DNA of 64,000 bases from Liolophura sinensis (Eukaryota; Mollusca; Polyplacophora; Chitonida; Chitonidae): NCBI RefSeq assembly GCF_032854445.1, contig NW_027017960.1, positions 186,001 to 250,000 on the forward strand, in the 5' to 3' direction. Under the pieces are notes generated by a model. The model did not search any database. It saw only the letters and a list, made by a program, of their open reading frames with translations, and had not been told where the DNA came from. This document shows positions 37,600 to 64,000 of this stretch, piece by piece (the stretch's first letter is position 1; every line of letters starts with the position of its first letter). The position numbers and the translations under genes were made by a program.

Positions 37600-38370
37600 T
37601 TTATGCACTCAGCGCATGCATGCCACACACAGTGACACGTTAGAAAGTCATGTAGCCATGCGGATGGTATGTAAAAGAAATCCCCTTAGCAATACAGACA
37701 ATGTGCCACACACAGTCGCACGTTAGAAAGTCCTGCAAACATGCGGGTGATATGCAAAAGAAATTATCTTAGCAATACAGACAACGTGCCACACACGGTC
37801 ACGCGTTAGAAAGTCTATTTTATGCAGATGACATGCAAAAGAAAATACTTTAGCAATACAGACAACGTGCCACACACGGTCACACGTTAGAAAGCCTAAT
37901 TCATGCAGATGACATGCAAAAGAAAATACCTTAGCAATACAGACAAGGTGCCACACACGGTCACACGTTAGAAAGTCTATTTCATACAGATGGCGTGCAA
38001 AAGAAAATACTTTAGCAATACAGACAACGTGCCACACACAGTCGCACGTTAGAAAGTCTAATTCATGCAGATACCATGCAAAAGATATTGCCTTAGCAAT
38101 ACAGACAACGGGCCACACACTGTCACAATGAGAAAGTCTATTTCATGCAGATGGCATGCAAAAGAAAATACCTTAGCAATACAGACAACGTGTAACACAA
38201 AGTCACACGTTAGAAAGTCTATTTCATGTAGATGGCATGCAAAAGAAAATACCTTAGCAATACAGACAACTTGCCACACAAAGTCACGCGTTAGAAAGTC
38301 ATGCAGCCATGCGGATGGCATGCAAAAGAAATTACCTTAGCAATACAGGCAACGTGCCACAACGTCGGAA
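37600..38370 (-). repeat. 81-bp minisatellite, array T1
   Basis: About nine units marked by 'gcaatacagacaacgtgcca' at roughly 37773, 37852, 37936, 38019, 38096, 38177, 38257 and 38339. Read on the minus strand the 27-codon period stays open for 131 codons (VWHVVCIAKVFSF-type repeats). It lies in intron 1 of the PLAT gene, 3' of the signal exon, as do T2 and T4. Confidence 0.9.
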
Positions 38371-38898
38371 AGTTTTTACTGACAAATATACACATCTTTT
38401 TAAAATGCAAAATAAAATATAGGTACACGTAGCCAGCTATAAATCACTGATATGCACGCTTGTGAATTTTGTTTTCCCCGTGTCGTGCTTGGCCTTTAGG
38501 TTATCAGGGACTTTGGAACATCTCCTGGCGTCTTAAATGTAAAACTGCAGGACTTTACTGGGTGATGTTTGCGATATAAACTAAAGTACGAAGTTTAATC
38601 CCCTGTTTCTTAAATGTTCACAAATACAGTTCAACGGTTTAACACTCAGACTTTAGACATACGAGGTTATTGCCTCACTACTTTTCAGCTTTAAAGCAGA
38701 CATGGTTTTTCGTCACATCACTAGAAAATTTCGGGAAAAATGCAGGTGCTCAGCTTTGGATCTTATTTTGTTAGGGTTAGTTTGCGTAAACGAGACACAT
38801 CAGTCAAAATGTCGAGTTTAAAACAAACAAACAAACAAAAAAAAAATAAGAGAAACAAAAACCAAAGGAAAACAATAATATATTTTGTGTTCACTTAC

Positions 38899-39048
38899 AC
38901 AGTTGAAGGATTTCTGACCCTAACACAGTACATGTGCTGTCCATTCATTTCAGTAGTTTTTAGCTTTTGAAGAAGTAAATGTTTTCTGTCACGTGATATC
39001 TAAATGTAACTGTTCAGATTTTCATCAGAATTTACCACACACGTATAC
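38899..39048 (-). pseudogene. Decayed Ig-like exon beside signal exon S1
   Basis: Aligns with the open exons at 49498-49648 and 53121-53271, but the acceptor AG is gone (ttcccgatgtaccgg) and the frame stops after VYVCGKF. The 'atgtactgtgttagggtc' part is preserved. Confidence 0.65.
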
Positions 39049-39374
39049 CGGTACATCGGGAACAAGACCACGTCATCAGTAGACCTTACCTCGTCTAATT
39101 GCTTATATTCAAATTCAACCATTTTGGGTCATGTGACAAACATGGTAACCGGTATATTTTCACAGCTTTCAAGATATGAAAACGCTTTTAGGAAAGTGGT
39201 GTTGTGTCACTGGTTCTATCAGTTTATAAAATTCTAACTTAATCCATTTACTGAATCTAGAGACACAACCATTCCCTACTCAGTGACTGCGTAGCTGATA
39301 TAATCTACCTATGATCGAACAAAGTGTTAGAACTGATTAACTGACAACTCCAAGAAAAGGTAACCACCACCCTA

Positions 39375-39388
39375 CCCCCCCCCCCCCC
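39375..39388. repeat. C14 homopolymer
   Basis: Fourteen C residues in PLAT intron 1, about 75 bp past the signal-exon donor. Confidence 0.95.
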
Positions 39389-39461
39389 ACTCCCAAAAGC
39401 GTAACGCTGGGCAAAGCGAGAGTAAATTCCCCTAAAAGAATAAGAATTGGCTCCAACTTAC

Positions 39462-39549
39462 CAACTTTATCTCCGGAAGACATAACAGAATATCCCATCA
39501 ACAAAAGACAAGGGAACAGCAGGGAGACCGATGCTTTGTTCACACCCAT
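39462..39549 (-). CDS. PLAT receptor exon 1 (S1): signal peptide
   Basis: ATG gives MGVNKASVSLLFPCLLLMGY then SVMSSGDKV, a clear signal peptide, ending AAAGTTG/GTAAGT in phase 1, the phase needed by the PLAT exon at 33116. An in-frame ATG 48 bases upstream would add a hydrophilic leader and is less likely. Near-identical exons are at 49040-49127 and 61755-61842, a truncated one at 53600-53634. Confidence 0.6.
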
Positions 39550-39784
39550 GTCTCCGTTTGGGCATGAGTGCCAATGTCTGATCAGTGGTTGATTCACTGT
39601 AAGGTGAACACTTTAAAGTTTGCAAGACTGTGTTGCCCGGAACTGATCACGTACGTTGAAGGAAATGTGCGTTGTCTTAAGAAAGCCAAGCGGTCGTGAA
39701 ATTAGAATTTGAATGGAATTCCCTTAAATTTTCGGAGAAAACCACAAGGTTTCCTCACTGAACAAACATTCAGCTAAAAACTGT

Positions 39785-40500
39785 ACAAGATGACCAACGG
39801 TAGTTAACCTGCGGAAGGTTATCATGTAGACGGTTTCCTGATGAGGTAGACGTTTAGACTGAAACCTGGGCACGATGACCAACGGTAGTTACCCTGCGGG
39901 GGTTATCATGTAGTCGGTTTCCTGATGAGGCAGGCGGTAACACTGAAACCTGGACACGATGACCAACCGTAGTTACCCCGCGGGCGTTATCATGTAGTCG
40001 GTTTCCTGATGAGCTAGACGTTTAGACTGAATCCTGGACACGATGACCAACGCTAGTTACCCTGCAGGCGTTATCATGTAGACGGTTTCCTGATGAGGTA
40101 GACGTTTAGACTGAAACCTGGACACGATGACCAACGCTAGTTACCCTGCGGGGGTGATAATGTAGACGGTTTCCTGATGAGGCAGACGTTTAGATTAAAT
40201 CCTGGGCACTGTGACCAACGGTAGTTACCCTGCGGAGGGTTATCATGTAGACGGTTTCCTGATGAGGCAGACGTTTAGACTAAATCCTGGGCACGATGAC
40301 CAACGGTAGTTACTTTGCAGAAGGTTATCATGTAGAAGGTTTTTTGATGAGGCAGACGTTTAGACTAAAACCTGGATACGATCACCAATGGTAGTTAACC
40401 TCCGGGCGGTTATCATGTAGAAGGTTTCGTCATGAGACAGACGTTTTGGCTAAAACTTGGGCACTTTGATTAGCTCTGGTTACTGTGTGGAGTGTTATCA
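39785..40500 (-). repeat. 84-85-bp minisatellite, array U1, upstream of signal exon S1
   Basis: 'gatgaccaacg' marks at 39789, 39874, 39958, 40042, 40126, 40210 and 40295, with 'gttatcatgtag' and 'ggtttcctgatgag'. Every signal-exon copy in the window has such an array 0.15-0.5 kb upstream. Confidence 0.92.
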
Positions 40501-40754
40501 TGCAGCAAGTTTCCTCATCAAGAGAATGGAAGACCGGGGATGTTCACCAGCTCTAGTTATCCTCCGTAGAATTACTGCAACGTTTGATGGATTATGTCCG
40601 CAATTTAAAATAATAGGCCTTTTATCAAATTTCAAAAGCTCACATTTAAGCAAGCTGAAATTTTGTCATGAAACAGGAAGTACAGGCCTTGATGGTTCGT
40701 CCCAAATTAGTAGCCAAACGTTGTGTTCCTTATTTTGTATTCATTTGACTTGAG

Positions 40755-40830
40755 ATCTTTCTCGAGAATATTTCACCTATACGACCGCAGCCAGCATAAT
40801 GGTGAGAGGGAACCGGCCTCCGCTGGTTGT
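40755..40830 (-). mobile_element. SINE fragment
   Basis: 'cgagaatatttcacctatac' and 'gcagccagcataatggtgag'. Confidence 0.7.
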
Positions 40831-40834
40831 CCAA

Positions 40835-41260
40835 CGCTGTGTACATCATAGAACCCGTAAATGATATCTTTTGTAATTTCATAATTAGGCCTAATTATAT
40901 ATTAAAATTGCCAATCACCCGACAACAGTGTTCCAATTTAGTTTCCGATCCTAAGCCTACATGTCATTTCATTCCAGGACATTATAGTAGATGACAATTT
41001 GTTTAAACTATGACAATGCTTTTTAACGTGTAAAGTGAAAAGCTCATGAATATTATACGCCGTTATACAAAAATTCAGTAACTAAAAAACTAAACAACAA
41101 TACATAAACATGTAATAACGAAATGGATATTATGCCAAAAATAAACACTATGGCTATAAAATTTAACAGCCCTAAGTTCACTGTTTACGTAGGCCAGTGC
41201 ATTCTGGGAAAAATGGATGTCGCTATGTTTATCTGAGCTTTGTGTAACATGCACCGTTTG
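40835..41260. other. Arm sequence, no gene seen
   Basis: Partly mirrored at 60.9-61.1 kb. Confidence 0.4.
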
Positions 41261-41264
41261 GGGA

Positions 41265-41360
41265 GTTACGTAAATTACCTTCCCACGTACGGCCGAAGAG
41301 GAAGCCAGCACGAGCTAGATTTGAACTGAGAGCAACCGCATTCGTGAGAGGCTTCATCCA
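41265..41360 (-). mobile_element. SINE, 5' (head-side) fragment
   Basis: 'taccttcccacgtacggccg' through 'gcaaccgcattcgtgagagg'. The mirrored region has a SINE at 60188-60312 in the same, not opposite, orientation, so it is a separate insertion. Confidence 0.75.
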
Positions 41361-41364
41361 GTCA

Positions 41365-42235
41365 AACACAACAATCGTATCTTAGAGTTATAGAAAAAAA
41401 TTAATATTATTTATTAATAGTCTGCTATTGTTAGTCTGAGAAAAAAACATTTATAAGGCCCTATAGCAGTCAAGCACTGGCCCAGAATGAAGATTTCAGA
41501 CAATCTAAGTCATTTTCAAAATTAGTCCAGAGGCGTGAACCGATTTGATTGAAAAGTCAAGTAGACCTGCATATCACCGCCATTGTTTCCGAGGTAGCTT
41601 CCTTACCAGTGGTTGGCAAATCTCCCTTTTCATCATGAACAAGGCTATGGGGAATCCCACACTGACATGGCCGTACCCCTATCAGTATCTTCGTTATCAG
41701 ATTCCTCCAACCATGACATAACATTTGTAAATAAAACAAAATGTCTGTCGTGCATTAACAAGCACGAAACATAGAATTCAACTTTCTGCAACACAAACAG
41801 GCGGATTGTTTGGATAGCATTGCTGTGTTGTCAACGGGATACAGAAAATCTCTCATTTCAGATTTAAAATGGTTCCCAACCTTAAGAAGGAATATCTGCG
41901 TCAATTACATTTCCAAGGGTTGTCATGATTGTGCTGTCCGTTATCTTCATGTAGGCCTACACGCGGTATCCGTCACGTGTAAACTCTAGAAGATATTTCC
42001 TTACTACGTAAACGAGACACACTCTTCAAATACAGGTGGTTTCATAGCATCATAATACTTCCGAGTAAAGAAGTTTCACGCCATTATGCTATCCCTCACA
42101 GTTCACAATTTTGAATTTATCACCTCAGCCTAGAGAATTTCAGCCAGAACTGAGAAGTTCCCAGGTGTTGGACTATTCCTAAATTTACATAATCTTTACA
42201 TGCAGGGAGATTCCTTGATGAAACCCTAATTCGTC
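41365..42235. other. Arm sequence downstream of GNAT, no gene seen
   Basis: Mirrored at 59.3-60.05 kb. Probably includes the GNAT 3' UTR. Confidence 0.45.
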
Positions 42236-42237
42236 TG

Positions 42238-42828
42238 TCATTTTCCCTCTAAGAATACTGAGTTATAATCGTGTTGTACAAGTTTTTCAAATCCAAACTT
42301 TTCTAATATTCGAGAGGAAAATCGACCGCTCGACTCTGCCGTTAGCAACCGGAAATTCCGCTCTTGAATGAGCTGGAGCGTTTTGGCCACCATTTTCGTC
42401 CCGATTCCTTGACGCTGATATTTCTCTGCAACACAAATGCCTCTGAAATTCACCAGTGTGTCAACGTTGTATTTAGCGAACAGATTTAGCCCTTCGTATA
42501 GCTTGTCACTAATCTCGTAATTTAGGGCAAGTTTTCTCATCTTAGGGTCGTCTTTGGAAAAATTATACGCGTCTGGTTTATCTTTGTACACTATGGCTGC
42601 AAACCGAAGACCGACGATTTTCCCGGTTGACGAATCGATAGCCAGAACAGACAATCTGTCCTTCAGACAGACTGGAAAGGCGACGTCGAACCACAACACT
42701 CCGTCCTCACTTCCGGTCATATTGAGGCTCTTGCTGAGAGGCTCTTTGTCGAAGAACTCGATACACACGAACTGGCGCACCCGGTCTTCGCCGTCAGCAC
42801 ACAACATTCGAACCTTAATGTCGGCCAT
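42238..42828 (-). CDS. GNAT-family N-acetyltransferase (arylalkylamine NAT-like), intronless
   Basis: 196 codons uninterrupted from MADIKVRM to FLEGK. A GNAT transfers acetyl from acetyl-CoA to an amine. Motif A is complete: FRGICVAEKYQRQGIGTKMV, with the Q/RxxGxG/A pyrophosphate loop (RQGIGT), followed by LTAESSGRFSSRILEKFGF, the motif-B region. The NVDTLVNFRGICV strand before the loop and the overall order resemble invertebrate dopamine/arylalkylamine N-acetyltransferases, so a biogenic amine is the likely substrate; this is inference. It is cytosolic, with no signal peptide. No introns, which may mean retroposition or a family habit. A pseudogene copy is at 58664-59275. A group of CRE-like sites lies about 0.7 kb upstream. 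Confidence 0.85.
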   Translation of the reverse strand: MADIKVRMLCADGEDRVRQFVCIEFFDKEPLSKSLNMTGSEDGVLWFDVAFPVCLKDRLSVLAIDSSTGKIVGLRFAAIVYKDKPDAYNFSKDDPKMRKLALNYEISDKLYEGLNLFAKYNVDTLVNFRGICVAEKYQRQGIGTKMVAKTLQLIQERNFRLLTAESSGRFSSRILEKFGFEKLVQHDYNSVFLEGK

Positions 42829-42829
42829 G

Positions 42830-43240
42830 CTTGATGAAAAAGATAAAGAAAATCATCTTGGAATGCAAGGAAATCAAAGTCGTTTCAGTAAATACAAAGA
42901 AGCCTTCATCAAAAACAAGTGAAGATATAAGTGGAGACGTGTTTGATGATAAAGATTGTGTTTGTTGTTTAATTTATCCATGATTAAAAACTCTATTTCA
43001 GTGGACTGTTTAATTTTTGTCAAAGGTTTGCAGCGATTATTACACGAGTGCCGGTTAGACAGGCAAATGCAGAGAATATATTCAACTCTTTATGCCACTG
43101 TTTCAAACGTATATATGTAACACGCCGCGTTTCGAATTTGATTTGAGGATCTAAGAAATGAACGAGCACACAAAAGTTTCCCATATTCGGACACATTGGG
43201 TGTGATAAACGGATAAAACGAATTTTCTGTTCAAGCCACG
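42830..43240. other. GNAT upstream region
   Basis: The first 90 bp are mirrored at 58540-58660; from about 42950 the mirror is lost until 44050. Confidence 0.4.
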
Positions 43241-43245
43241 TAGAT

Positions 43246-43272
43246 GGGGGGGGGGGGGGGGGGGGGGGGGGG
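43246..43272. repeat. G27 homopolymer
   Basis: Uninterrupted run of 27 G; a polyproline reading on the other strand is an artefact. Confidence 0.97.
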
Positions 43273-43501
43273 TCCATGTAATTTGCTTTGGTGCTATTTA
43301 AAGAGCTACTTTGGTGTCAAAGCATCTGTGTCCTAAACGCAAGGTGAATTGATAAAGACTGGGTTAGTCTGAACTGCTTTCCTAAATTGTGAAAATATTG
43401 CAGTCAATTAAAACCGATGTTGCACGTTTCATCAGAGTATACGGATAGAAGATATTTCTGTCCATTCCACTATGCCTGGTGTGAAGTCACCCGCGAACAC
43501 A

Positions 43502-43616
43502 TGACGTCATCAATCGCTGACGTATATCCACAAATGACGATGCCCTTTCAAACGCTTTTGACGTCATCCCATCATAAAGGCCTTACTCAACGTCACATCT
43601 GCCTGATTCGACGTCA
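43502..43616. promoter_or_regulatory. Cluster of CRE/ATF-like palindromes
   Basis: TGACGTCA at 43502-43509 and 43559-43566, with CGACGTCAT near 43609, plus half sites (tgacgta, tgacgat, cgtcac). It lies 0.67-0.79 kb upstream of the GNAT start. Function not shown. Confidence 0.45.
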
Positions 43617-43849
43617 TACAGGGACTATTTTCAGGTGACATCCGGCAAAATTTAGGGACACAGCCGAAGATTTTGTTTTTCACGGAATCTTTAGTTATAT
43701 GGGTTAAATAGTGTTATTCATCAAAATCCTACTGAAACATAGTGTTAGGCTTAATCCGTAGGATTTCTTTCATATCACTGTAATATTTCTACTCCATTTG
43801 TATTCTGACCAGAGTGGCACTTTAAGCATTTGCGCGAATGGTTAGAATA

Positions 43850-44040
43850 TAAAGCCTAACTCAGGTGAGTTGACATAAGGCCGTATGTCATCTTTTAGCT
43901 GTGACCATTTATTATTTATCGCCCGTGGTCGCCATTCTGGTTTACTCTGGTAGCTGTAAGCTTTCCACTATACTGTATTCCTGCAAAAGTCATTACTCTG
44001 TTGGTGGACTAAGCAACACCGAGTACTGATCCCTTTGCCT
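43850..44040. repeat. Dispersed repeat C
   Basis: 'gcctaactcaggtgagttga' and 'tctggtttactct' as at 16690-16800. Not present in the other IR2 arm. Confidence 0.5.
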
Positions 44041-44049
44041 CGTTTAATG

Positions 44050-44635
44050 AAAAACTAGTCTAATTTCATTTTTTTTTCTTGCGACAGTACAAACCTCCAA
44101 CGTATAGATGTGTAGAATTTCCGGCGTTCCGTGTCACTCACGAAAGGCAAGTTTAGTAGAGAGCAAGACTTTCACAGATTGTTGAATATAGGCGACATGT
44201 TGAAACAAACACAGTGAAGTCCCATATCTTGGGTGATAAAACTAGCAGACAGGCGGGGCATGTGGTATAAGCTTGTAGCAGTGAACAGGGCGCTTGAGGT
44301 CTGCAAATCTGGGGACACTCACTCTCCCCCTTCAATACTCATGTACACGACAAAATATGTATGATGTCGATTATTGTAACTACATTACCTGCACCAATGC
44401 CCGGGGAGATTTCTTTAACACAGCGTCCTTAAGATATAGGAGAACAGACGAAACTCACAGGCAGATATATGTCTATTTTTATGTTATGGTCTTTGACAAT
44501 GTAGGTCATACTTTTATGCGATTCATGGTTTATCTGTTTGCATAGTGTGACCTTTGGTTTTACTTTATAATCTATTCGTGGGACAATATATCAACTGGTG
44601 AAGTGGAGCACAGTGAACAAGGATTTGTATTTCAT
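44050..44635. other. Arm sequence, no gene seen
   Basis: Mirrored at 57.95-58.5 kb. Confidence 0.5.
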
Positions 44636-44639
44636 TTAT

Positions 44640-44720
44640 TTTTTACTGTAATTTAATGAGAAAAAAGTTTTCACATATACGATGGGGGTCAGTTTTGTGG
44701 GTGAGGGAAGCCGGCTGCAC
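44640..44720 (-). mobile_element. SINE remnant shared by both arms
   Basis: 'cacatatacgatggggg' and 'gtgggtgagggaagccgg'. The mirror at 57800-57925 is plus, so it predates the duplication. Confidence 0.55.
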
Positions 44721-44724
44721 ATGT

Positions 44725-45475
44725 CTAACCATAGAATGTTGACAAGTTACTTAGGAACTTTTCCATGTTTGACGTAGACCAACAGATAGGCACACCATAC
44801 TGTTCACTGGTGGTAAAGGAGCACCATCGAGTCCTACTTTTCTCCTGTCCCATAAAAGCGGGGAAATTCACAAAGTAATTCATATCAATCAATGGGTTAG
44901 AACCTGCCTATACGGAGTGTGTCCCATAGGATGGAAAACATACACTTTAAACACTCGGCCACGGCCTGTTCTCAGCATGGGATGGAAGTTTACAGTTCGT
45001 CCTATTGAAGAATTACCCAACATAAATCGGTTTTATTTACCTATGCAGAGCAAGAGATTCTGTTGAACTAGCGAGAGCTAAATGTTTTACACAACGTTGT
45101 CAGCGAGATCTCTCTAAATGAAATTTAAAACGGTAATTATACGTTATCCATTATATATTATAATCATAAAATACCAATTACTTGTTAGAGGCCGATAAAG
45201 CTCATAATTACAGAAAGAAGGAAGGATTTACGATAGCACAGGGCACACATTTACGCTGAATATGTATTGGTAGAAATTATAATAATTGTGGCGGCTCATG
45301 TTGTTTCCTCTCCCTTCCACAGCGCAACACCCTGCCCATCCCCTCCCCATCCTTTGCCCGTATCTCGATAGTACTCAGCACCTTTTACACACTATCTGTG
45401 TTTATTGTAATTGTGGCACAACTATAAGCTTAATGGTGAACAACATCCATTTAAGTACATAAAGTCGGTTATGTC
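44725..45475. other. Arm sequence, no gene seen
   Basis: Mirrored at 57.07-57.8 kb. Confidence 0.5.
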
Positions 45476-45479
45476 CTTC

Positions 45480-45760
45480 GTAGTCACAAGACTGGAAAAC
45501 TGTTAAGTATGACGTTAAAGCCCAAGCGCTGATTCACCCACTCACTCCTTGTGCTGCGTTGTCAAAGAGCATAGATAGCAGCACTATTGCAACACAGTAT
45601 ATTCCTCCTGTGAACGGAGCGAACATTGGCCTTGCACAAGATTCGGGCTCAAACCCGGTCTTAGACAGGGAATTTGTGAATTCGTTCGCTCTCACTGTTT
45701 CCAGAGCCATGGGGAAAATCACCTATGGACGACCTCTTGAGGCTGTTTACACAGTCTAAC
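45480..45760 (-). repeat. B-like element with tRNA-like B box
   Basis: 'gactggaaaactgttaagta' and 'cacccactcactcc' match the B family end; 'gattcgggctcaaacccgg' is B-box-like. Mirrored at 56650-57065. Confidence 0.55.
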
Positions 45761-45764
45761 TTTC

Positions 45765-46525
45765 GTTAAAGGCCACTTTGTCTTCCACAAATGGGGGGAA
45801 AGTTCGTCAGTGAATTGGTATGGTCGGACTTGGTTGGTGATTTGCGCCAGATACTCTATTTCCACTCACGAATGTGACCTAGTATCGTGTAAAGTATAAA
45901 ACAGTCTTTATTTAGCAAAGATTCACAACATTGTGACGAGAATGATCAAACCATGATCTGTCAGGAAAAACTACATTGTCATGATTCTGTCAAGTTTCAG
46001 CCGAGATTTGGTCGCGAAATCAACGCAGAGCGACATTCAGCGAGCAGGACAACATTTGATCGATAACAGGTGCGAGATCTGCATGAGGTTTTCGACAGAT
46101 TGTCCTTGGAATGTCGCTCAATCTTGCTGTGTTGTTCGAATATAGCTGTTGACGGTTTGTGGCAAAAAGCTAGCATGGTCGCATCCGGTTTCCGTAGATT
46201 CTGGCACTCAGAAGTTAAAGATATACAGAATCGATTCTTGAATTGGCTGAACTGAGGGATAGGCAAGTCCAGGCCATGCCTGTCCTAGGCTGAATTTTAG
46301 GTGTGGCAGATCTATTCAAGCGTGACCAAGGCTGAAAAGTAAAACTCAGTAAAAACCTTTGTCCATAGTAAGCCAGTCAGTGTCGATTGTGTATCTCTTT
46401 AAACGGGGGACTTCCAGCAAATAAATCTCTTGAGGACCTTAAGCTGTGGTGGATTATGACGTCTCAAATACACTATACATTGTCAAAAAATCTCATGCAG
46501 TTTTACATTAAAATCCACATGTTGC
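45765..46525. other. Arm sequence, no gene seen
   Basis: Mirrored at 56.1-56.7 kb. Frames of similar sequence on both arms (CHKPSTAIFEQHSKI) have stops and frame shifts between arms and no splice support. Confidence 0.45.
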
Positions 46526-46529
46526 TGTG

Positions 46530-47020
46530 ACGCTGAGTGTAAGACGAATGGACCAAGTACTGTTTTGTTCCGTGTTAGAATAATGTGACTGGGTTGGGCA
46601 GCATGTCTGTTGTCTTCGGCATGGCGTAACAGTGAGGTAGCACTATAATTTTTGGGTGTTCCGTCCAGTGTGCTACAAGGAGACACCGTCGTGATATAAT
46701 CGAAATGATGTTTTATTTTTTTTTTTTTTGATTGGTGTTTTACGCCGTAACTCAAGAATATTTCACTTATACGACGGCGGGCCAGCATTATGGTGGGTGA
46801 GACTGGGCAGAGAAACCCACGACCATCCACAGGTTGCTGGCAGACCTTCCCACTTACGGCCGGAGAGGAAGCCAGGATGAGCTGGACTTGAACTCACAGC
46901 GACCGCATTGGTGAGAGGCACCTGGGTTATTACGCTGCGCTAGCGCTCTAACCGACTGAGCCACGGAGGCCCCTCCCGAAATGATGTTGAAATGCAACGT
47001 TAAACACGATTCAAACTAAG
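46530..47020 (-). repeat. B2-like element split by a SINE
   Basis: 'ttgtcttcggcatgg', 'agtgaggtagcacta' and 'gtgctacaaggagacac' left of the SINE, 'gcaacgttaaacacgattca' right of it. Confidence 0.5.
46713..46976 (-). mobile_element. Full-length SINE with 12-bp target-site duplication
   Basis: Minus orientation. The head, read in reverse complement, has A box TGGCTCAGTCGG and B box GAGTTCAAGTCC, then the conserved centre and the 'gtaaaacaccaatc' end with an A-rich tail. 'cgaaatgatgtt' stands on both sides (46701-46712 and 46977-46988). Confidence 0.95.
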
Positions 47021-47059
47021 AACCAGACATTAGAATCCCCTTGCCATAATGCAAATAAA

Positions 47060-47215
47060 AAAGATCGACTAATTATCCATTGCAGTTTTGAATCGAACAC
47101 ACAAAGCCATCTCTGCCCTTCCACTGACCGGTAAACAATAGTCTCCACAGTTATACGACTTCATGTGTCTTGGGGCTGAAAGACAAGAAATTTTAACCAC
47201 TGGGCTACATTTTCA
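47060..47215 (-). repeat. tRNA-like segment shared by both arms
   Basis: Reverse complement has 'gtagcccagtggttaaaat', an anticodon-arm-like 'cttgtctttc' and 'gtgtgttcgattcaaaactg'. Mirrored at 55740-55895. Confidence 0.4.
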
Positions 47216-47246
47216 ATGTTCGAATCATTATATCCTCACGGGTCCC

Positions 47247-47465: not shown

Positions 47466-47469
47466 AGGC

Positions 47470-53859: not shown

Positions 53860-54545
53860 GACGAACTGTAGTTATTTTGAGGAGGGTTATTAGGCAGAAG
53901 GTTACCTCATGAGACTGAAATCTGGACACCGTGGCCAACTCTAGTTATCGTGAGGAAGGTTATCATGTATAAGGTTTCCTAATGCGGCAGACGTTTAGAT
54001 TGAAATCTGAACAGGATGACGAACTGTAGTTACCAAGCCGAGGGTTATCAGGCAGGGTGTTTTTCCGTAAGACAGACATTTAGGGAGAAACCTGAACACG
54101 ATGACAATCAGTAGTTATCCTGTGGAGGGTTAACATGTATAAGGTCTCCTGATGAGGCAGACGTTTAAACTGACACCTGGACACGATGACCAACCAGTTA
54201 TCCTGCGGAGGGTTATAATGCGGGATGTTTCCCAGTGAGACAGACGTTTAGGCAGAAACCTGAACACGATGACCATCTGTAGATATCCTGGGTTATCATA
54301 AAAATGGTTTCCTCGTGGGACAGACGTTTAGGCAGAAAGCTCAAGACGATGACCAACTGTAGTTATCCTGGGTTATCATAAAAAGGTTTCCCCGTGGGAC
54401 AGACGTTTAGGCAGAAACCTGTACACGATGACCAACTGTAGTTATCGTGAGGAAGGTTATCATGTATAAGGTTTCCTAATGAGGCAGACGTTCAGACTGA
54501 AATCTGGACACGATGATCAACTGTAGTTATCCTGAAAAGGGTTTA
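53860..54545 (-). repeat. Array U3, upstream of signal exon S3
   Basis: Units with 'gatgaccaactgtagttat', 'gttatcatgtataaggtttc' and 'gaggcagacgttt'. Confidence 0.9.
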
Positions 54546-54549
54546 TTTT

Positions 54550-54910
54550 ATTTTCTGTTTATTTCCGCAATTTCTTTTTTAATAGTTCCGTTACAAGCTA
54601 GAAACAGATAGAACAGTCAGGACTGTTGGCACTAACAATGACATCATGTGACGCGATCAGCAAGCAGGTATGATACCTTGTTATCAGTCTCAAAAAAGTT
54701 ATGTCCTGAAAGTACAATTATAGTCTCTGAATTCAGGGCTAATGCCAGCAATGTTTGAAAATAATGAGCTGATTGTTTTTCATTTACTTGAAATACAAAC
54801 TTCAGCAGTTTGAAATTCGGATCAACGGGAAATTAAATTTGTTTAAATTTGATGTATTTCATTATGACTCATATCATGATAACAGGTTAACATAAGCATA
54901 TACAATTTTT
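54550..54910. other. Arm sequence, no gene seen
   Basis: Mirrors 47.95-48.3 kb. Confidence 0.45.
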
Positions 54911-54914
54911 TACT

Positions 54915-55070
54915 GGCCATATGTGGGAAGGTCCTCCAGCAACCTGCGGATGGTCGTGGGTTTCACCCTGGCTCTGCCCAGTTTTCTCCCACCATAATGC
55001 TGGCCGTCGTCGTATAAGTGAAATATTACGGCGTGAAACACCAATCAATTAAATCAAATAAAATACATTT
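54915..55070 (+). mobile_element. SINE, 3' part, shared by both arms
   Basis: 'cagcaacctgcggatggtcg', 'ggccgtcgtcgtataagtga', 'ggcgtgaaacaccaat'. Partner of 47765-47925. Confidence 0.85.
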
Positions 55071-55504
55071 ATTTACATCTATATAACTTTAATGATTCAA
55101 AGTTAATTGTTGATACATAGCTCAGTTCTATGTGACCTGTGAAAAACAAATGCATTTTACACATTTAAATTGATTATTTATGTATGCAAATTTTAAAGTT
55201 ACATTCCACAACCTGTATACTCCGATTGATAATGAAGTCGCAAGTTTGAATCCAACAATTTCGAATACAGATGAGAAAAGTTCGAATCAAGTCGCCACTG
55301 TTGTGGACGAGGCTTTGATGACAAGTGGTTTGTAGGCCTTTGCTTGTCAAATTGTGTTGATGTTCGTCATACAAGTAAAGTAGTCTTTAATGCGTCGTAA
55401 CACACCAAATAGGTGTATAAAATACAAATGCAGGTGGTGTAAATAAATACAAATAGGTTATTTAGGGTCGAAAATTGTCATAAAACATCGCTGTGAGCCT
55501 ATAA

Positions 55505-55735
55505 TTTATCAAGAATATTTCACTTATACGACGGCGGCCAGCATTATGGTGGGAGGAAACCGAGAAAATCACTGAAAAACCTCACCACCATCCGCGGGTT
55601 GCGGCCAGGCTTTATACATGATACATATGCTATCGGAGAGGAAGCCAGCATGAGCTGGACTTGAACTCTCAGAGATCGCATTGGTGATAGGCTCCGGGGT
55701 CGTTACGCTGCGCTAGCACGCTATTCCGTGAGCGT
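55505..55735 (-). mobile_element. SINE, near full length, shared by both arms
   Basis: 'aagaatatttcacttatacg' through 'gaggaagccagcatgagctg' to 'gtcgttacgctgcgctagca'. Partner of 47247-47465. Confidence 0.85.
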
Positions 55736-55739
55736 ATCA

Positions 55740-55895
55740 TGAGTCGACCATTGAAAATGTAGCCCAGTGGTTAAAATATCTTGTCTTTTAATCGCAAGAC
55801 ACATGAAGTCGTATGATTGTGGAGACTATTGATTACTGGTCAGTGGAAAAGCAGAGATGGCTTGTGTGTTCGATTCAAAACTGCAAAGGATGATT
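55740..55895 (+). repeat. tRNA-like segment shared by both arms
   Basis: 'gtagcccagtggttaaaata', 'cttgtcttttaatcgcaag', 'gtgtgttcgattcaaaactg'. Stems are imperfect and no acceptor stem is seen. Partner of 47060-47215. Confidence 0.4.
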
Positions 55896-55899
55896 AGTC

Positions 55900-56980
55900 G
55901 TTTTTTTATTTGCATCATGGCAAGGAATTCTAATGTCTGCTTATGAGCGTCAAGTGAGATAAATACTATGTTACCGATGTCAAAGTTTTTGGTATTGATT
56001 CGAGTCGGTATTGAGCCCGGGGTTCTACACTTCACTACGTCACGGCAACATGTGGATTTTAATGTAAAACTGCATCAAATTTTTTTAAAAAATGTATGGT
56101 GCATTTGAGACGTCATAACCCACCCCAGATAAACGTCTTCATGAGTTTTATTTGCTGGAAATCCCCGTTTAAAGGGATTCACACTCGACACTCACTCACT
56201 GACAATGGACAAAGGTTTTCCTGAGTTTTACCTTTCAGCGTGGGTTACGCTTGAATAGGTCTGCCACATCTAAAATTCAGCTTAGGACAGATATGGCCTG
56301 GACTTGCCTATCTCTCAGTTCATCCAATTAGAATCGATTCTATATACCTTTAACTTTTTAGTGCCAGAATCTACGGAAACCGAAAGCGGCCATGCTAGCG
56401 TTTGCCACAAACCGTCAACAGCTATATTCGAACAACACAGCAAGATTAAGCGACATTCCGAGGACAATCTGTCGACAAACTCATGCAAATCTCGCACCCG
56501 TTATCAATCGAATCTTGCCTGCTCGCTGGAATTTCGCTCTGCGTTGATTTGACAGTGTAGTTTTTCCTGACAGATCATGGTTTGATTATTCTCATCACAA
56601 TGTTGCTATCTTTTGCCAAATAAAGGTTGTTTTATATTTTACACAATACTAATCACTTTTGTTAGTGGAAATGGAGTACCTGGCGCAAATCACCAACAAG
56701 TCCGACCATACCAATTTACTGACGAACTTTTCCCCTATTGGTGGAAGACAAGTGGCCTTTACCGAACGTTAGACTGTGTAAACAGCCTCAAGAGGTCATC
56801 GATCGCTTATTTTCCCCAGGGCTCTAGAAACAGTGAGAGCGAAAAAATCAACAGATTCCCTGTCTATGACCGGGCTTAAACCCGAATCTTGTGCAGGGCC
56901 AATGTCCGCTCCGTTACACACGAGGAGTATACTGTTTTGCACTAGTGCTGCTATCTATGCTATTTGACAACAGAGCAGGG
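55900..56980. other. Arm sequence, no gene seen
   Basis: Mirrors 45.5-46.5 kb; lacks the SINE found at 46713. Confidence 0.5.
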
Positions 56981-56984
56981 GGTG

Positions 56985-57070
56985 AGTGGGTGAGTCAGTG
57001 ATTGGTCTTTAACGTCACACTTAACAGTTTTTCCAGTCTTGTGACTACGAAAGACATAACCGACCCTATG
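56985..57070 (+). repeat. B-like element end
   Basis: 'gtgagtgggtgagtcagtga' and 'cttaacagtttttccagtct'. Mirrors 45480-45545. Confidence 0.6.
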
Positions 57071-57074
57071 TTAT

Positions 57075-57795
57075 AAAATAGATGTTATTCACCATTCAGC
57101 TTATAGTTGTGCCACAATTACAATAAACACAGATAGGGTGTAAAACGTGCTGGGTACTATCGAGATACGGCAAAGGATGGGGAAGGGATGGGCAGGGTGT
57201 TGTGTTGTGGACGCGGGAGGAAACAACATGAGCCGTCAGTATTATTACCATTTCTATCGTTACATATGCAGCATATATGTATGCCTGTGTTATTGTAAAT
57301 CCTTCCTTGTTTCTGTAATGATGAGCTTTATCCCCCATTAATTAATAGTAGATAATAATATATAATGGATAATGTATAATTACCGTTTTAAATTTCATTT
57401 GGAGTGATCTCGCTGCCAGCGTTGTTTAAAAAATTAGCTCTCGCTAGTTCAACAGAATCTCTAACTCTACATAGGCACAAAAAATTGAATTATGTTGGGT
57501 AACTCTTCTATAGAACGAACGGTAAACTTACATCCCATGCTGAGAACTGGTCTTGTGTTTAAAGTGTTTAAAGTGATTGTGTTTCCATCCTATGGGACGC
57601 ACACTGTATAAGCAGCTTCAAAGCCGACGTTTGGCAGGAATTACTTTGTAAATTTCCCCGCTTTTTATGGAGCAGGTGAAAATTAGGAGTCCATGGTACT
57701 CCTTTACCGCTTACGCACTGCAACGTTCTTTGAAGACAACTTTTTCTCCGCCAGTAAACAGTATGGTGTGCCTATCTGTAGGTCTACGTCAAACA
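57075..57795. other. Arm sequence, no gene seen
   Basis: Mirrors 44.73-45.45 kb. Confidence 0.5.
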
Positions 57796-57799
57796 CGGA

Positions 57800-57925
57800 A
57801 AAGTTTTTCAGTGACTTGCCAAAGGACTGTGATTAAACCCGTCAGTCCGGTTTCCCCCACCCACAATACTGATTCTCATCGTATGTGTGAAAACGTTTTG
57901 TTATTAAATTACAGTCAAAAATAAA
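57800..57925 (+). mobile_element. SINE remnant shared by both arms
   Basis: 'cagtccggtttcccccaccc' and 'tctcatcgtatgtgtgaaaa'. Partner of 44640-44720. Confidence 0.5.
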
Positions 57926-57929
57926 CGAA

Positions 57930-58660
57930 GTACAATCTTTGTTCCCTGTGCTCCACTTGACCAGGTGATATACACTCTCACATATAGTTTATAAAGTAAA
58001 AACAAACGTCACACTATGCAAACAGATAATCCATGTCAGTAGCGTTTACATGAACCACATAAACGTATTTCCTACATTGTCAAAGAACATAACATAGATG
58101 TAGACATATATCTGCATGTGACTTTCATCTATTCTCCTTTGTCTTAAGGACATTGTATTAAAGAAATCTGCCCGGGCATTGGTGCAGGTAATGTATAGCT
58201 CCAATAATCGATATTATCCACATGTTGTCGTCTACATGAGTATTGAAGGGGAAATTGAGCGCTGCCATATCTGCTGAACTCAAGCGCCCTCTTGTCTGCT
58301 ATAAGCTGATACCACGTGTCCCGCCTTTCTGTACTAGTTTTATGACCCAAGATATGAGACTTCATTTTGTTTGTACATTCAATAATCTGTGAAGGTCATG
58401 CTCGCTACCAAACTTGCCTTTCGTTAGTGACACGTAACAACAGAAATTCTACACATCTATACGTTGGAGGTTAGCACTGTTGCAACAAAAAATTAAATTA
58501 TACTAGTTTTCCACAAATGCTGTGTTTTAGAACAAAATCTAAATCATCGAGCATGTCTCCACTTATATCTTCACTTATTTTTGATAAAAGCATTTTTGTA
58601 TTTACTGAAAGAACATTGATTCTCTTGCATTGTAGGATGATTTTCTTTATCTTTTCGTCA
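57930..58660. other. Arm sequence upstream of the GNAT pseudogene
   Basis: Mirrors 44.05-44.64 kb and 42.83-42.95 kb. The 1.1-kb stretch with the CRE-like cluster and G27 is absent. Confidence 0.5.
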
Positions 58661-58663
58661 AGC

Positions 58664-59275
58664 ATGGCCGACATTAACGTTCGATTTTAAAGACCGGGTG
58701 CGCCAGTTCGTGAGTACCGGGTCCATCGACAAAGAGTCTCTCAGCAAGAGCCTCGATATGACCGGAAGAGAGGACGGAGTGTTGTGGTTCGACGTCGCCT
58801 TTCCAGTCTGTCTGAAGGACAGAATGTATGTTCTCGCTATCGTTTCGCCAACCGGGGAAATCGTAAACGATAAACCAGACGCGTATAATTTTTCCAAAGA
58901 CGACCCTAAAATGAGAAAACTTGCCCTGAGTTACGAGGGTATCGACAAGCTATACGAAGGGCTAAATCTATTCGCTAAATACAACGTAGATACACTGGCG
59001 AATTTCAGAGGCATTTGTGTTGCAGAGAAACACCAGCGTCAAGGATAAAAATGGTGGCCATAACGCCCCAGCTCATTCAAGAGCGGAACTTCCGGCTGGT
59101 AACGGCAGAGTCGAGCGGTCGATTTTCCTCTCGAATATTTGAAAAGTTTGGGTTTGAAAAACTTGTGCAACACGATTATGACTCAGTAGTGTTAGACAGA
59201 GAACCGTTGAACTCGAGAGACGATATGAGGTTTCATCAAGGAATCTCCCTGCATGTAAAGATTATGAAAAGTTAA
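58664..59275 (+). pseudogene. GNAT acetyltransferase pseudogene
   Basis: Copy of 42238-42828. Damage: a deletion after MADINVRF gives an immediate TAA; another removes the GLRFAAIVYK segment in frame; an 8-bp loss in the RQGIGT loop gives RQG-stop and shifts the rest; the native stop is lost so the last frame runs on to 59275. The motif-A coenzyme loop is therefore destroyed. The remaining protein-level similarity is high, so inactivation is fairly recent relative to the duplication or was repaired by conversion. Confidence 0.92.
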
Positions 59276-59279
59276 AAAT

Positions 59280-60185
59280 AGTCCGGCACCTGGGAACTTC
59301 TTAGTTCTGGCTGAAATTCTCTAGGCTGAGGCGGTAAGTTCAAAATTGTGAATTGTGAGGGATAGCATGGTGGCGCAAAGGTTCTCTTGTCGGAAGCATT
59401 ACTGTGCTATGATACCGCCTGTATTTGAAGAGTGCGTCTCGTTTACGTGGTAAGGAAATATCGCCTAGATTTTACACGTGACGGATACTGCGTGTAGGAC
59501 AAAGCGAAGATAACGGACAACACAATCATGACAACTCTACGAAATGTAATTGATGCAGCTATTCCTTCTTAAGGCAGGGAGCTAGTTTAAAACTGAAATG
59601 GGAGATTTTCTGTATCCCGTTGACAACACAGGAATGCTGTCCAAACACTCCTTCAAACAACCCGCCTGTTTGTGTTGTACAAAGTTGAATTCTACGTTTC
59701 GTGCTTTGTTAATGCACGACAGATATATTTTTGTTTTAAGGACAAATGTTATGTCATGGTTGGAGGAATCTGATAACGAAGATACTGATAGGGGCACGGC
59801 CATGTCAGTGTGGGATTCCCCATAGTCTTGTTCCATAAATAGCCAACATTGTGCGAGAACGAGGCTGTCATGATGAAAAGGGAGACTTGCCAACCACCAG
59901 TAAGGAAGCTAACCAGGAAACAATGGCGGTGATATGTAGGTCTACTTGACCTTTCATGCAAATCGGGTCACGTCAGTGGACTAATTTAGAGAATCCTTTA
60001 GATTGTCTTTGAAATGTTCATTCTGGGACAGTGCCTGCATGCCATAGGTCCTTATAAATGATTTATTTTTTTTTCAGACGTGACAGAAAATGGCAGACTA
60101 ACAATAAATAAGTTCCGATTGCTGTATTTGAGTGGATGTTTTCCACTCTTCAAGAATTGCTTCATAGAATTTATGTATTTATTTA
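59280..60185. other. Arm sequence, no gene seen
   Basis: Mirrors 41.4-42.23 kb. Confidence 0.5.
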
Positions 60186-60187
60186 TT

Positions 60188-60312
60188 ACCTTCCCACGTA
60201 CGGCCGGAGAGGAAGCCAGCATGAGCTGGATTTGAACTCACAGCGACCGCATTGGCTATAGGCTTCTGAGTCATTACGCTGCGCTAACGCGCTGACGGAG
60301 CCACAGAGGTTC
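60188..60312 (-). mobile_element. SINE, 5' half with tRNA-like head
   Basis: 'ccttcccacgtacggccgga' to 'gacggagccacagagg', with a 'tttatttatt' tail joined directly to the middle of the element. Confidence 0.8.
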
Positions 60313-60509
60313 CCCTCATAAAATGGAAGTGTTTCTAATGGAAAATGATAGCTTAATAAGCACAATATGAACAAGTATGGAGCGCCATTAACAACGATAC
60401 ATGGAAAAGTACATGACACAGATATGAGGGTAATACGTTATAATGGCAGAATATAATTATGGCCTACAGCCTGCAGAGTAAAACCACAACAACAACGATA
60501 GTGTGCTAG

Positions 60510-60700
60510 CTGGCAAACTGTCACAAGTAACCGGTGAAAAACAGGCCCTTGTCATTTTACCTCGGTTATGGGTTATATTTTAACTGTTCATGTAAATGCA
60601 TAAATAGGGGTAAAATGCACTCCCGGTAGCACCATGGTTTAAGCAGAATCAGGTAAAACAAGTATGCAGTGATTGTTGATTGCAATTAATTAGAAGTCAC
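60510..60700 (+). repeat. Dispersed repeat C
   Basis: 'acaagtaaccggtgaaaaac' and 'cattttacctcggttatggg'. Not found at the mirrored place in the left arm. Confidence 0.6.
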
Positions 60701-60704
60701 TGGT

Positions 60705-61250
60705 CTAGAACTACTCAAAATGCTGCTTGTCATCACATTTAACATACAATCACATTAAAAGAATGCAAAGGAATGACATAAGTCAGTATTACGTCGAAAA
60801 GTCTGCCACAGAAAAAGCGTTCCAGTTACACCTTCCTTACGAACTAGTTTTACTACTGATTTTTCAAACAGATAACATGTGGCATCTTTACAATAGCTAA
60901 ATTTAAGTAGCTCCCGAAAAGGGGCATGTTACACAAAACTCAGAAAACACAGCAACATCGATTTTTCCCAGAATGCACTGTCCTATGTAAACAGTGGAGT
61001 TAGGGTTGGTTTTATGGACAAATATTTGACAAATTGTTATTACTATAATGTTTTGGTACGAAATGACATGTCGGCTTAGGATCTGAATCTAAGATGGAAC
61101 ACTGTTGTAGGGTGCAGTTTTCATCGCCTGTACTTCCTGTTTCATTACAAAATTTCAACCTGCTTAAATCTGAAGGTTTTTGAAATTTGATAAGAAGGTA
61201 ATTATTTTAAATTGCGGACGCAATCCATCAAACGTTTTAGGAATCCTACC
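60705..61250. other. Arm sequence, no gene seen
   Basis: From about 60.9 kb mirrors 40.55-41.3 kb. Confidence 0.45.
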
Positions 61251-61254
61251 GTGG

Positions 61255-61615
61255 ATAACTAGAGCTGGTGAACGTTGATGAGAAAACCTTCTGCATGATA
61301 ACACTCCACACGACAACAAGAGCTAATCAGGTGTCCAGGTTTCAGCCAAAACATCTGTCCTATGAAGAAACCTTCTACATGATAACCCTCCGCAGGATGA
61401 TCACAGTTGTTCATCGTGTTCAGGTTTGAGTCTAAACGTCTGCCTCATCAGGAAACCTTCTGCATGATAACCTTCCGGAGGATAACTACCGCTGGTCATC
61501 GTGTTCAGGTCTCAGTCTAAACGTCTGCCTCATCAGGAAGCATTCTACATGATAACCCTCCTCAAGATAACTACAGTTGGTCATCGTGTCCAGTTTTCAG
61601 CAGAATGTTTGTTCA
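61255..61615 (+). repeat. Array U4, upstream of signal exon S4
   Basis: Four to five units with 'catgataaccctccgcagga' and 'tcatcgtgttcaggt'. Confidence 0.88.
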
Positions 61616-61754
61616 GTGCTCTTTTAAGACAACGAACATTTCCTTCAAAGTACGTGATCAGTTCCGGGCAACACAGTCCTGAAAACTTTAAAGTGTTCAC
61701 CTTATAGTGAATAAACTGCTGATCAGACACTGGCAATCACGCCCAAATGGAGAC

Positions 61755-61842
61755 ATGGGTGTGAACAAAGCATCGGTTTCACTGTTGTTCCCCTGCCTTT
61801 TGTTGATGGGATATTCTGTTATTTCTTCCGGAGATAAAGTTG
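61755..61842 (+). CDS. Signal-peptide exon S4 (PLAT-gene copy)
   Basis: MGVNKASVSLLFPCLLLMGY then SVISSGDKV, donor GTTG/GTAAGT, phase 1, closest to S1. Later exons, if any, lie beyond the window. Confidence 0.5.
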
Positions 61843-62249
61843 GTAAGTTGGAACCAATTGTTATTCTTTTAGGGGAATTTATTTTCGTTTTGCCAAGCGT
61901 TACGCTTTTGGGAGTGGTTGGGTAGGGTGGGGGTGCCCTTTTCTTGGAGAAGTCAGTTAATCAATTCGAACACTTTCTTCCATCATAGGTAGATTACATC
62001 AGCTATACAGTCACTCAGTAGGGAATGTGTTGGGTCTCAAGATCCAGTAAACCGATTAAACGAGAATTTAATTCGCTGAGAGAACAAGTGACACAACACC
62101 ACTTTGCCAAAAGCGTTTTCATATCTTGAAAGCTGTGAAAAAATACTGATTACCATATTTGTCACGTGACCAAAAATGGTTGAATTTGAATATAAGTAAT
62201 TAGACAAGGTAAGGTCTACTAATGACGTGGTCTTATTCCCAATGTACCG

Positions 62250-62402
62250 GTATACGTGTGTGATAAATTCTGATGAAAATCCGAATAGTTACATTTACAT
62301 ATCACGTGACAGCAAACAGTTACTTCTTTAAAGCTTAATATGACTGAAATGATAGGACAGCACATGTGCTGTGTTAGGGTCAGAAATCCTTCAACTGTGT
62401 AG
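62250..62402 (+). pseudogene. Decayed Ig-like exon beside S4
   Basis: Shares the S1-side lesions: no acceptor AG (cccaatgtaccgg) and a stop after VYVCDKF. Confidence 0.6.
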
Positions 62403-62599
62403 GTAAACACAAAAGATAGGATTGTTTTGTTGTTGTTCCTTTTTTCTTTTCTTGCTTTAAACTCGACATTTTGACTCATGTCACAAAATAATGTCAAAAT
62501 CTGAGTACCTGAATTTTTCCCGAAATTTAGGAGTGATGTGACGGAAAACCGTGTCTGCTTTAAAGTTGAATAGTAGTGAAGCAATAGAATAGCGTTTCA

Positions 62600-64000
62600 A
62601 TAAAATTTGTATATTTTTCTGTGAAACAACTCTCCGACAAGACTGTGTGTGGCATGTTGTCTGTGTTGCTAACGAGTGACTGTGTGTGGCACGTTGTGTG
62701 TATGGTTAACGGGTGGCTGTGTGTGGCACGTTGTCTATATGGCTAAGGTAATTTCTTTTGTATACCATCTGCATGGCTGCATAGCTTTCTAACGTTTGAC
62801 TTTGTGTGGCTCGTTGTCTATATGGCTAATGTAATTTGTTTTGCATACCATCCGCATGGCTGCATGACTTTCTAAGGTGTAACTGTCTAGCGCGTCACTG
62901 TGCGTGGCACACTGTCTGTATGGCTAAGGTAATTTCTTTTGCATACCGTCCGCATGGCTGCATGGATTTCTAACGTGTGACAGTGTCTGGCTCGTTGTCT
63001 ATATGGCTAAGGTAATTTCTTTTGCGTACCATCCACATGGCTGCATGACTCTCTAACGTATAACTGTGTGTGGCACATTGTCTGTATGGCTAAGGTAATT
63101 TCTTTTGCATACCATCTGCACGGCTGCATGACTTTCTAACGTATGATTGTGTGAGCACATTTTCTCTATTGCTAAGGTAATTTCTTTTGCTTCCCATCCG
63201 GATGGCTGCATGACTCTCTAACGTGTAACTGTGTGTGGCACGTTGTCTGTATGGCTAAGATAATTTCTTTTGCATGCCATCTGCAGGGCTGCATGACTCT
63301 CTAAGGTGTCAGTGTGCGTGGCACCTTGTCTGTATAGCTAAGGTAATTTATTTTGCACACCATCCACATGGCTGCATGACTCTCTAAAGTGTCACTGTGC
63401 GTGGCATGTTGTCTGCATGGCTAATGTAATTTCTTTTGCATACTATCCGCATGGCTGCATGGATTTCTAACGTGTGACAGTGTGTGGCTCGTTGTCCTTA
63501 TGGCTAAGGTAATTTCTTTTGCGTCCCACCCGGATGGCTGCATGACTCTCTAGCGTGTAACTGTGTGTGGCACGTTGTCTGTATGGCTAAGGTAATTTCT
63601 TTTGCGTCCCATCCAGATGGCTGCATGACTCTCTAATGTGTAACTGTGTGTGGCACATTGTCTGTATGGCTAATGTAATTTCTTTTGCATACCATCCGAA
63701 TGGCTGCATGACTTTCTAAGGTGTGACTGTGTGTGACACCTGTCCATATGGCTAATGTAATTTCTTTTACGTACCATCCGCATGGCTGCATGACTCTCTA
63801 ACGTATAACTGTGTGTGGCGCGTTGTCTGTAGGCCTATGGCTAATGTAATTTATTTTGCATACCATCCGCAGGGCTGCTTGACTTTCTAACGTATGACTG
63901 TGTGTGACACATTTTCTGAACTGCTGAGGTAATTTCTTTTGCATACCATCCGCAGGGCTGCACGACTTTCTAACGTGTAACTGTGTGTGGCATACATGCT
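62600..64000 (+). repeat. Array T4, 81-bp-type minisatellite
   Basis: At least seventeen units with 'taacgtgtaactgtgtgtgg', 'cacgttgtctgtatggctaa', 'ggtaatttcttttgcatacc' and 'atggctgcatgactctc'. It continues past the window end. Confidence 0.92.

Follow-up and report, generated by a model that had tools for sequence, protein, structure and literature searches.

Tandem segmental duplications with mosaic units are a general kind of genomic structure, with units of tens of kilobases (kb), and the models of amplification by inverted duplication, origin-dependent inverted-repeat amplification (ODIRA) and template switching, concern recent events. In such amplification, inverted and tandem copies are described as occurring together and palindromic junctions as being rearranged later (PMC10766186; PMC4856073). 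In the ampliconic palindromes of mammalian X and Y chromosomes, arm identity above 99% is reported to be kept by gene conversion (PMC8981503), and in the parthenogenetic springtail Folsomia candida palindromes are reported within scaffolds, in 11 of 15 linked blocks (PMC5490193). Here we analyzed a large palindrome of the chiton Liolophura sinensis in a window of 64,000 nucleotides (the whole stretch of DNA under study), which covers positions 186001-250000 of scaffold NW_027017960.1 (411,351 bp, here called C21). The mirrored stretch seen in the window forms the inside of a larger but imperfect palindrome within a repeated block that bears a GNAT acetyltransferase gene. We consider it probable that the locus consists of segmental duplications in tandem, with diverged inverted arms in the units, an old inverted duplication having been amplified and arms later replaced in some of the units. 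The locus looks like a record of repeated rearrangement, not a self-repairing palindrome of the sex-chromosome type.

An earlier note, made from the letters alone, had described a giant palindrome of about 26 kb, with arms mirrored through a spacer of about 3.5 kb near 51.3 kb. Comparison of the window with itself by BLAST bore out the mirrored arms and the spacer. The left inner arm (window 38869-49660, plus strand) and the right inner arm (53109-62428, minus strand) are inverted copies with 79-88% identity (38.87-49.66 kb against 53.11-62.43 kb), separated by a 3.45-kb spacer (49661-53108, 3448 bp) whose middle lies at 51.38 kb. The inverted matches were 38869-39686 with 62428-61618 (88.3%), 41637-42962 with 59833-58531 (85.2%), 44051-46543 with 58510-56030 (81-88%), 47024-48747 with 55939-54112 (80-82%), 48385-49062 with 54290-53612 (79.2%), and 49250-49660 with 53545-53109 (82.7%). 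Twenty first-order Markov sequences, used as a control, gave no inverted hits >150 bp at E<1e-10. Minisatellites, the GNAT frame, a signal-peptide-like exon and short dispersed repeats reappear in reverse order, as the note, which named the last of these SINEs, had stated, but the right GNAT copy is broken. The size did not stand: a simple 26-kb palindrome was rejected because the arms run on beyond the window. The full chain joins C21 205870-235660 to 239109-266012 with 90.6% identity over 20279 aligned bases (window 19.87-80.0 kb). The arms are 27-30 kb long and the partner end is outside the window, where the left outer arm (20855-37400, plus strand) pairs with C21 ~250.2-264.8 kb.

The gene-bearing block with its palindrome repeats every 74-83 kb, in five units and one partial unit on C21 and in three units on C13. 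We number the C21 units 1 to 5, with the partial unit 0 at the scaffold start, and call the C13 units a, b and D (the third); the window is unit 3. B denotes a left arm and P a right arm, of an old or a newer type. The array runs past the scaffold start of C21 and probably past its end as well, the last old-arm match listed being at 397.7 kb. Searches of the array scored at most 40 candidates each, and parts of the array are known as match positions. Among the best 40 of 85 candidates, the GNAT-bearing piece had at least five plus-strand matches on C21 (72.7, 151.3, 227.6, 307.2 and 387.4 kb), at least three on C13 (10.988, 11.063 and 11.140 Mb) and at least three minus-strand matches, all on C21 (83.6, 244.5 and 318.3 kb); the remaining listed matches were weaker and dispersed. 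The match in unit D (C13 11.140 Mb) covers query positions 1-451, outside the GNAT frame, and D is without that frame. The DNA at window 13300-14700, which overlaps the spacer of a second symmetry centre (see below), has eight copies in the assembly, all on the plus strand and 89-99% identical to the window copy, at 42.0 (in two pieces), 125.2, 199.3, 281.6 and 357.5 kb of C21 and at 10.961, 11.037 and 11.112 Mb of C13. Around GNAT, seven units are 91-98% alike, and 19 of the 21 unit pairs differ by 3.7-8.8%. Long, low-copy units thus follow one another in the same orientation, with an identity of about 90% or higher, as in a tandem segmental duplication. We also considered a transposon or other dispersed repeat as the source of the arms. 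Outside the C21 and C13 array, only query positions ~597-876 recurred among the best 40 of 3149 candidates. This reading was rejected because the arm DNA tested, short dispersed pieces aside, was confined to C21 and C13 among the matches listed (best 40 candidates per search).

Identity between the arms falls in layers. In unit 3, 1-kb bins are 92-96% identical across C21 207-222 kb (213-216 kb is without a partner) and 83-90% across 223-235 kb, so that in the window the mostly 92-96% identical outer arm steps down at ~37.4 kb to an inner arm of 83-90%. In 150-bp bins the step reads 97, 88 and 84% at C21 223200, 223350 and 223500, just outside an 81-bp minisatellite (C21 223.62-224.36 kb; window 37621-38361). 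The inner step is also found, less sharply, in unit 4 (92-96%, then 83-87%) and unit 1 (90-97% in the outer bins, then 86-93% in the inner), and is absent from unit 2, where bins are 80-86% identical (one bin of 10 bases at 90%). Toward the far, outward end there is another drop, which takes identity to 77-88% in unit 3 and to 79-88% in unit 1. The corresponding chains join C21 46001-76311 to 82364-110265 in unit 1 (93.4% over 17402 bases), 290001-310856 to 317089-339283 in unit 4 (limited to the stretch compared; 91.3% over 16783 bases) and 132067-149450 to 158529-183999 in unit 2 (84.0% over 7519 bases). Unit 2 was cut at 158.5 kb for the outer-arm tree and a scan for reading-frame constraint, and at 151.7 kb for the comparison of four units. 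No chain, that of unit 3 included, reaches the ~99% arm identity of a palindrome of the sex-chromosome type.

The right arms are of two kinds, an older one in units 0, 2 and 5 and in C13 a and b, and a newer one in C21 units 1, 3 and 4. The older arm is 78-86% identical to left arms. When the old right arm of unit 2 was used as query (positions 1-1507), it matched C13 b at 99%, unit 5 and C13 a at 97% (side pieces at 90%), left arms and the newer arms of units 1, 3 and 4 at 78-81%, and unit D at 78% or 73%, depending on the orientation. The old arm of unit 0 is the same as that of unit 2, with 98.2% identity over 1380 bases. Inverted arms were found by alignment in C21 units 1-4 and by match positions in unit 5 and C13 a, b and D, and units 2, 5, C13 a and b had just one GNAT copy each among the best 40 of 85 candidates. 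The newer outer arms are represented by minus-strand copies of 92-94% in C21 units 1, 3 and 4, and no long minus-strand copy of the outer arm was found on C13 among the best 40 of 3149 candidates.

The spacer in the window is not unique sequence. Together with 48.4-49.66 kb it forms an older inverted copy of parts of 32.7-40.4 kb, at 75-81% identity around a centre at ~44 kb; the left arm of this older palindrome is at 32675-40401 (plus strand) and its right-arm stump at 48384-53091 (minus strand). We read the spacer as part of an old-arm stump because two pieces resemble, in direct orientation, the start of the old arm of unit 2 (50485-50743 at 96.5% and 52584-53097 at 87%). The exact edge at 53.1 kb was seen in unit 3 only. 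The segment 53156-53611 had 24 matches listed: a single plus match at 100%, which is unit 3 itself; seven minus matches at 80-85%, corresponding to the B ends in units 1-5 and in C13 a and b; 11 (three minus, eight plus) at 68-71%, which represent a more distant duplicate; and five weak ones elsewhere. In the summary of these listed matches no other plus copy exceeds 69%. Units 1 and 4 lack 51984-57153 and have the 51984/57153 junction in common, and the palindrome in the window is therefore the most complete of the three with a newer arm.

We asked whether the structure could be an artefact, the assembly having wrongly joined two haplotypes or two loci, or having chained haplotypic duplications. 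The 609-Mb genome comprises 632 scaffolds, of which 13 are of chromosome size (C1, 96,433,062 bp; C12, 31.1 Mb; C13, 30.1 Mb; C14 has just 1.46 Mb), in line with the 13 pseudomolecules reported for GCA_032854445.1 (PMC11068029); the species was first published as Liolophura japonica and the name then corrected to L. sinensis (PMC12441733). Some features would suit an artefact: C21 is below chromosome size, it starts within the array, the HiFi reads reported for the assembly are short (mean 8,347 bp) at 14x coverage (PMC11068029), the 53.1-kb edge is private to unit 3, and two unit pairs are near allelic distance, with B1 and C13a 98.1% and B4 and C13b 97.6% identical (about 4 kb compared), although their right arms are of different kinds. 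However, divergence per bin is 10-17% between the two inner arms of unit 3, and nearly all unit pairs differ by the amounts given above, far over the heterozygosity of 1.24% stated for the assembly (PMC11068029). A spacer followed by a newer inverted arm is also present in units 1 and 4, which have another junction in common, the sequence is free of Ns across 320 kb that include the window, and old-type palindromes are present on C13. A related palindrome on a chromosome-size scaffold makes a mis-join less likely, and we regard the artefact as very improbable. The near-allelic distances between B1 and C13a and between B4 and C13b raise the possibility that part of C21 represents a second, recombined haplotype of the array on C13; if C21 and C13 are two haplotypes, the copy number of the array would differ between chromosomes. 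A partial genome duplication, on the scale of linkage groups, has been reported for L. sinensis (PMC12005716), in the examined text of which tandem or segmental duplication, inversion and palindrome are not mentioned, and our literature search found no paper on the chiton array.

The earlier note had proposed that such structures can promote gene conversion and copy-number change. The locus is indeed multi-copy, as the eight copies of the 13300-14700 DNA attest. Gene conversion is a different matter: under active homogenization of the mammalian sex-chromosome style, arm would correct arm within each unit. In favor of this, outer arms are mostly 92-96% identical, compared with 80-86% in unit 2 with its old arm, so that a tract would have been overwritten at least once. 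The relations between copies point the other way. In the outer arms (7 of 20 segments dropped from the tree for having fewer than three copies), identities are 95.4-96.7% between B arms, 96.4-97.4% between the P arms of units 1, 3 and 4, 93.4-95.0% between B and P, and 82.5-84.5% between the old P arms (units 0 and 2) and all B and newer P arms. In the inner arms, compared over the newer arm only (with 16 of 18 segments, three of which had all six copies), B-B identity is 93.1-94.7%, P-P 94.8-99.1% and B-P 85.8-86.4%. P1, P3 and P4 form a clade in both the outer tree (support 0.999) and the inner tree (1.000; two P1 segments and one P4 segment in this tree came from the old-arm stump), so that each P arm is closer to the P arms of other units than to its own B arm. 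Among 5161 six-way sites of the outer arms, 67 set B against P; variants confined to both arms of a unit numbered 1+4+1 (6 over three pairs) and those confined to two arms of different units 1+1+0+2+1+7 (12 over six pairs), so same-unit sharing is not raised. In the inner arms (1275 six-way sites) 109 sites set B against P, and none was shared either within or between units. With inner arms at 83-90% and the right-arm GNAT broken in all three newer arms, ongoing conversion is supported neither by the site patterns nor by the trees, and we hold it to be quite improbable as the force that shapes this palindrome. A single exchange in the past probably affected the outer arms.

The inner part of the newer arm resembles unit D of C13. 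D is 93.1-94.4% identical to P and 86.8-87.3% to B, with the B copies separated at a support of 100; 115 sites group D with P3, compared with 65 and 63 for the two alternative splits, and local alignments give 88-90% for D-P and 77-87% for D-B.

Taken together, these data suggest the following history. An inverted duplication would first have produced the old palindrome, centred at ~44 kb of the window around a single GNAT gene, and the block would then have been amplified in tandem. Next, a unit whose inner part was diverged and D-like would have supplied C21 units 1, 3 and 4 with a second inverted arm; the arrival of this arm would have severed most of the old one and given rise to the centre at 51.4 kb. 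The outer 16-20 kb of the newer arm would have been made B-like by one homologous exchange (a conversion tract or a crossover) that ended at the minisatellite and predated the split of units 1, 3 and 4. Finally, the palindrome centre may have been trimmed in units 1 and 4. When the outer tree is rooted at the old arms, the newer arm is sister to all B arms rather than nested among them, which would place the exchange before the B split or point to a mosaic source; the outer part may have been overwritten after insertion or may have come from an already mosaic source.

The identity step could instead reflect two separate inverted duplications, an old inner one and a young outer one, with no exchange at the minisatellite. 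Both readings would predict similar present identities, and a step common to units 1, 3 and 4 fits two duplications as well. Outward of the young tract, however, identity returns to the old level in units 1 and 3, a pattern that nested duplication does not predict, and we therefore consider two duplications unlikely. Several observations nevertheless weigh against the history of amplification, arm replacement and exchange given above. In unit 1 an inner bin is as high as 93%; for the old arm of unit 5, nearby B sequence but no left partner was among the matches listed; the old arms attach to the P1/P3/P4 branch in the outer tree (local support 0.973); and the comparison with D spans just 2.7 kb. 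In addition, only match positions are known for C21 270-290 kb and for the greater part of both 340-411 kb and the C13 array, and the order proposed for the second to fourth steps would follow from identity levels within the array, under a rough clock. More broadly, it is possible, and we put this tentatively, that the palindromes are repeatedly remade, with units swapping inverted arms, older arms being cut or replaced, minisatellites marking the ends of exchanges, and units standing at different stages.

The GNAT frame of the left arm (42241-42828, minus strand) is open over 196 amino acids and scores above the cut-off for Pfam PF13508, PF13673 and PF00583, all of them general GNAT families. 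Comparison of frames showed that the right-arm copy (58674-59197, plus strand) is broken, as it is in P1 and P4. The 196-codon frame is open in B1, B3, C13a and C13b, has one stop each in B2 and unit 5, and is frameshifted in B4; the gene has therefore not been kept by the three right arms, nor by three of the seven left-arm copies. The pooled pN/pS was 0.39 (0.00-0.70 in single pairs), calculated from 15 non-independent pairs drawn from six full-length copies without gaps, of which two have a stop, with stop codons skipped and with the frameshifted B4 and the three P copies left out. This suggests, though not decisively, that GNAT may be under some constraint. The scan for reading-frame constraint returned many short frames, gave no evidence of genes and did not list the GNAT frame, and a Pfam search of ten other frames found nothing beyond two weak hits (E 0.13 and 0.15). 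A putative signal-peptide-like exon of 88 nt, predicted from sequence together with its donor, precedes GTAAGT in three copies: at 39462-39549 (minus strand), at 49040-49127 (plus) in the old-arm stump, and at 61755-61842 (plus) in the right arm.

In addition to the minisatellite at the identity step, an 81-bp array occupies 50169-51757 in the spacer and an 81-83-bp array 62641-63992 in the right arm. An 84-bp array is found at 39774-40464 and an 84-85-bp array at 53843-54534, with inverted copies of 84-85 bp at 48573-48847 and 61284-61600. Short repeats at 35.08-35.36 and 56.16-56.37 kb occur on many chromosomes, mostly at 74-85%, and a search of Rfam with the short dispersed repeats gave no matches. 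In the left outer arm lies a Mutator-like transposase frame (28178-29740, minus strand; PF20700, E 5.5e-45), in which a stop separates 28664-29740 from the next frame. Of the four units compared, just units 1 and 3 had the transposase DNA (27.3-30.1 kb), and a direct repeat of 443 bp flanks it (26927-27369 and 30397-30839, 96%). A (GAT)42 run lies at 20426-20551, near the outer end of the left arm.

A weak second symmetry centre lies near 9 kb of the window. Its left arm (10-3408, plus strand) and right arm (15488-17284, minus strand) are collinear inverted pieces of 76-84% identity around a 12-kb spacer. Frames similar to a calcium-activated potassium channel beta subunit (PF03185) lie mostly in this spacer (13678-15768, plus strand), with 25.6 bits at 13678-14184 (cut-off 25.1) and 20.9 bits, below the cut-off, at 15442-15768. 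The spacer also holds two adjoining tandem arrays, 10890-11383 and 11387-11678 (units of 48 and 84 bp). Elsewhere in the assembly, scaffold C99 carries seven mitochondrial COX1 copies on one strand at a spacing of ~15.5 kb, and looks like a mitochondrial concatemer.

Nothing was seen to suggest a function of the symmetry itself. The palindrome multiplies and breaks genes, and offers more sites to recombination between units. At this one locus, sister copies of a palindrome stand at apparent stages: old arm kept, old arm replaced, outer tract overwritten, centre trimmed. If this is true, the life course of large palindromes can be read outside vertebrate sex chromosomes. The locus also shows that a palindrome can persist when its arms are not kept alike. 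The case also advises caution, as a striking palindrome in a small scaffold may be a fragment of a far larger repeated structure.

Like the ampliconic palindromes of mammalian X and Y chromosomes, the chiton palindrome has large gene-bearing inverted arms, a short spacer and a multi-copy setting, but its inner arms are only 83-90% identical and its gene copies are decaying. It resembles the blocks of Folsomia candida in having inverted collinear blocks in an invertebrate, some of them with gene copy-number variation, but in the chiton the palindrome is repeated in a tandem array. The inverted and tandem copies that arise together in the ODIRA and template-switch models are also reminiscent of the locus, whereas the chiton layers are old and the arms too diverged, leaving the originating junction unreadable. 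There is also a likeness to tandem segmental duplications, given units 91-98% alike around GNAT and signs of exchange between them, although the chiton units hold nested inverted arms of different age. The chiton locus is thus a layered record that belongs to a known kind.

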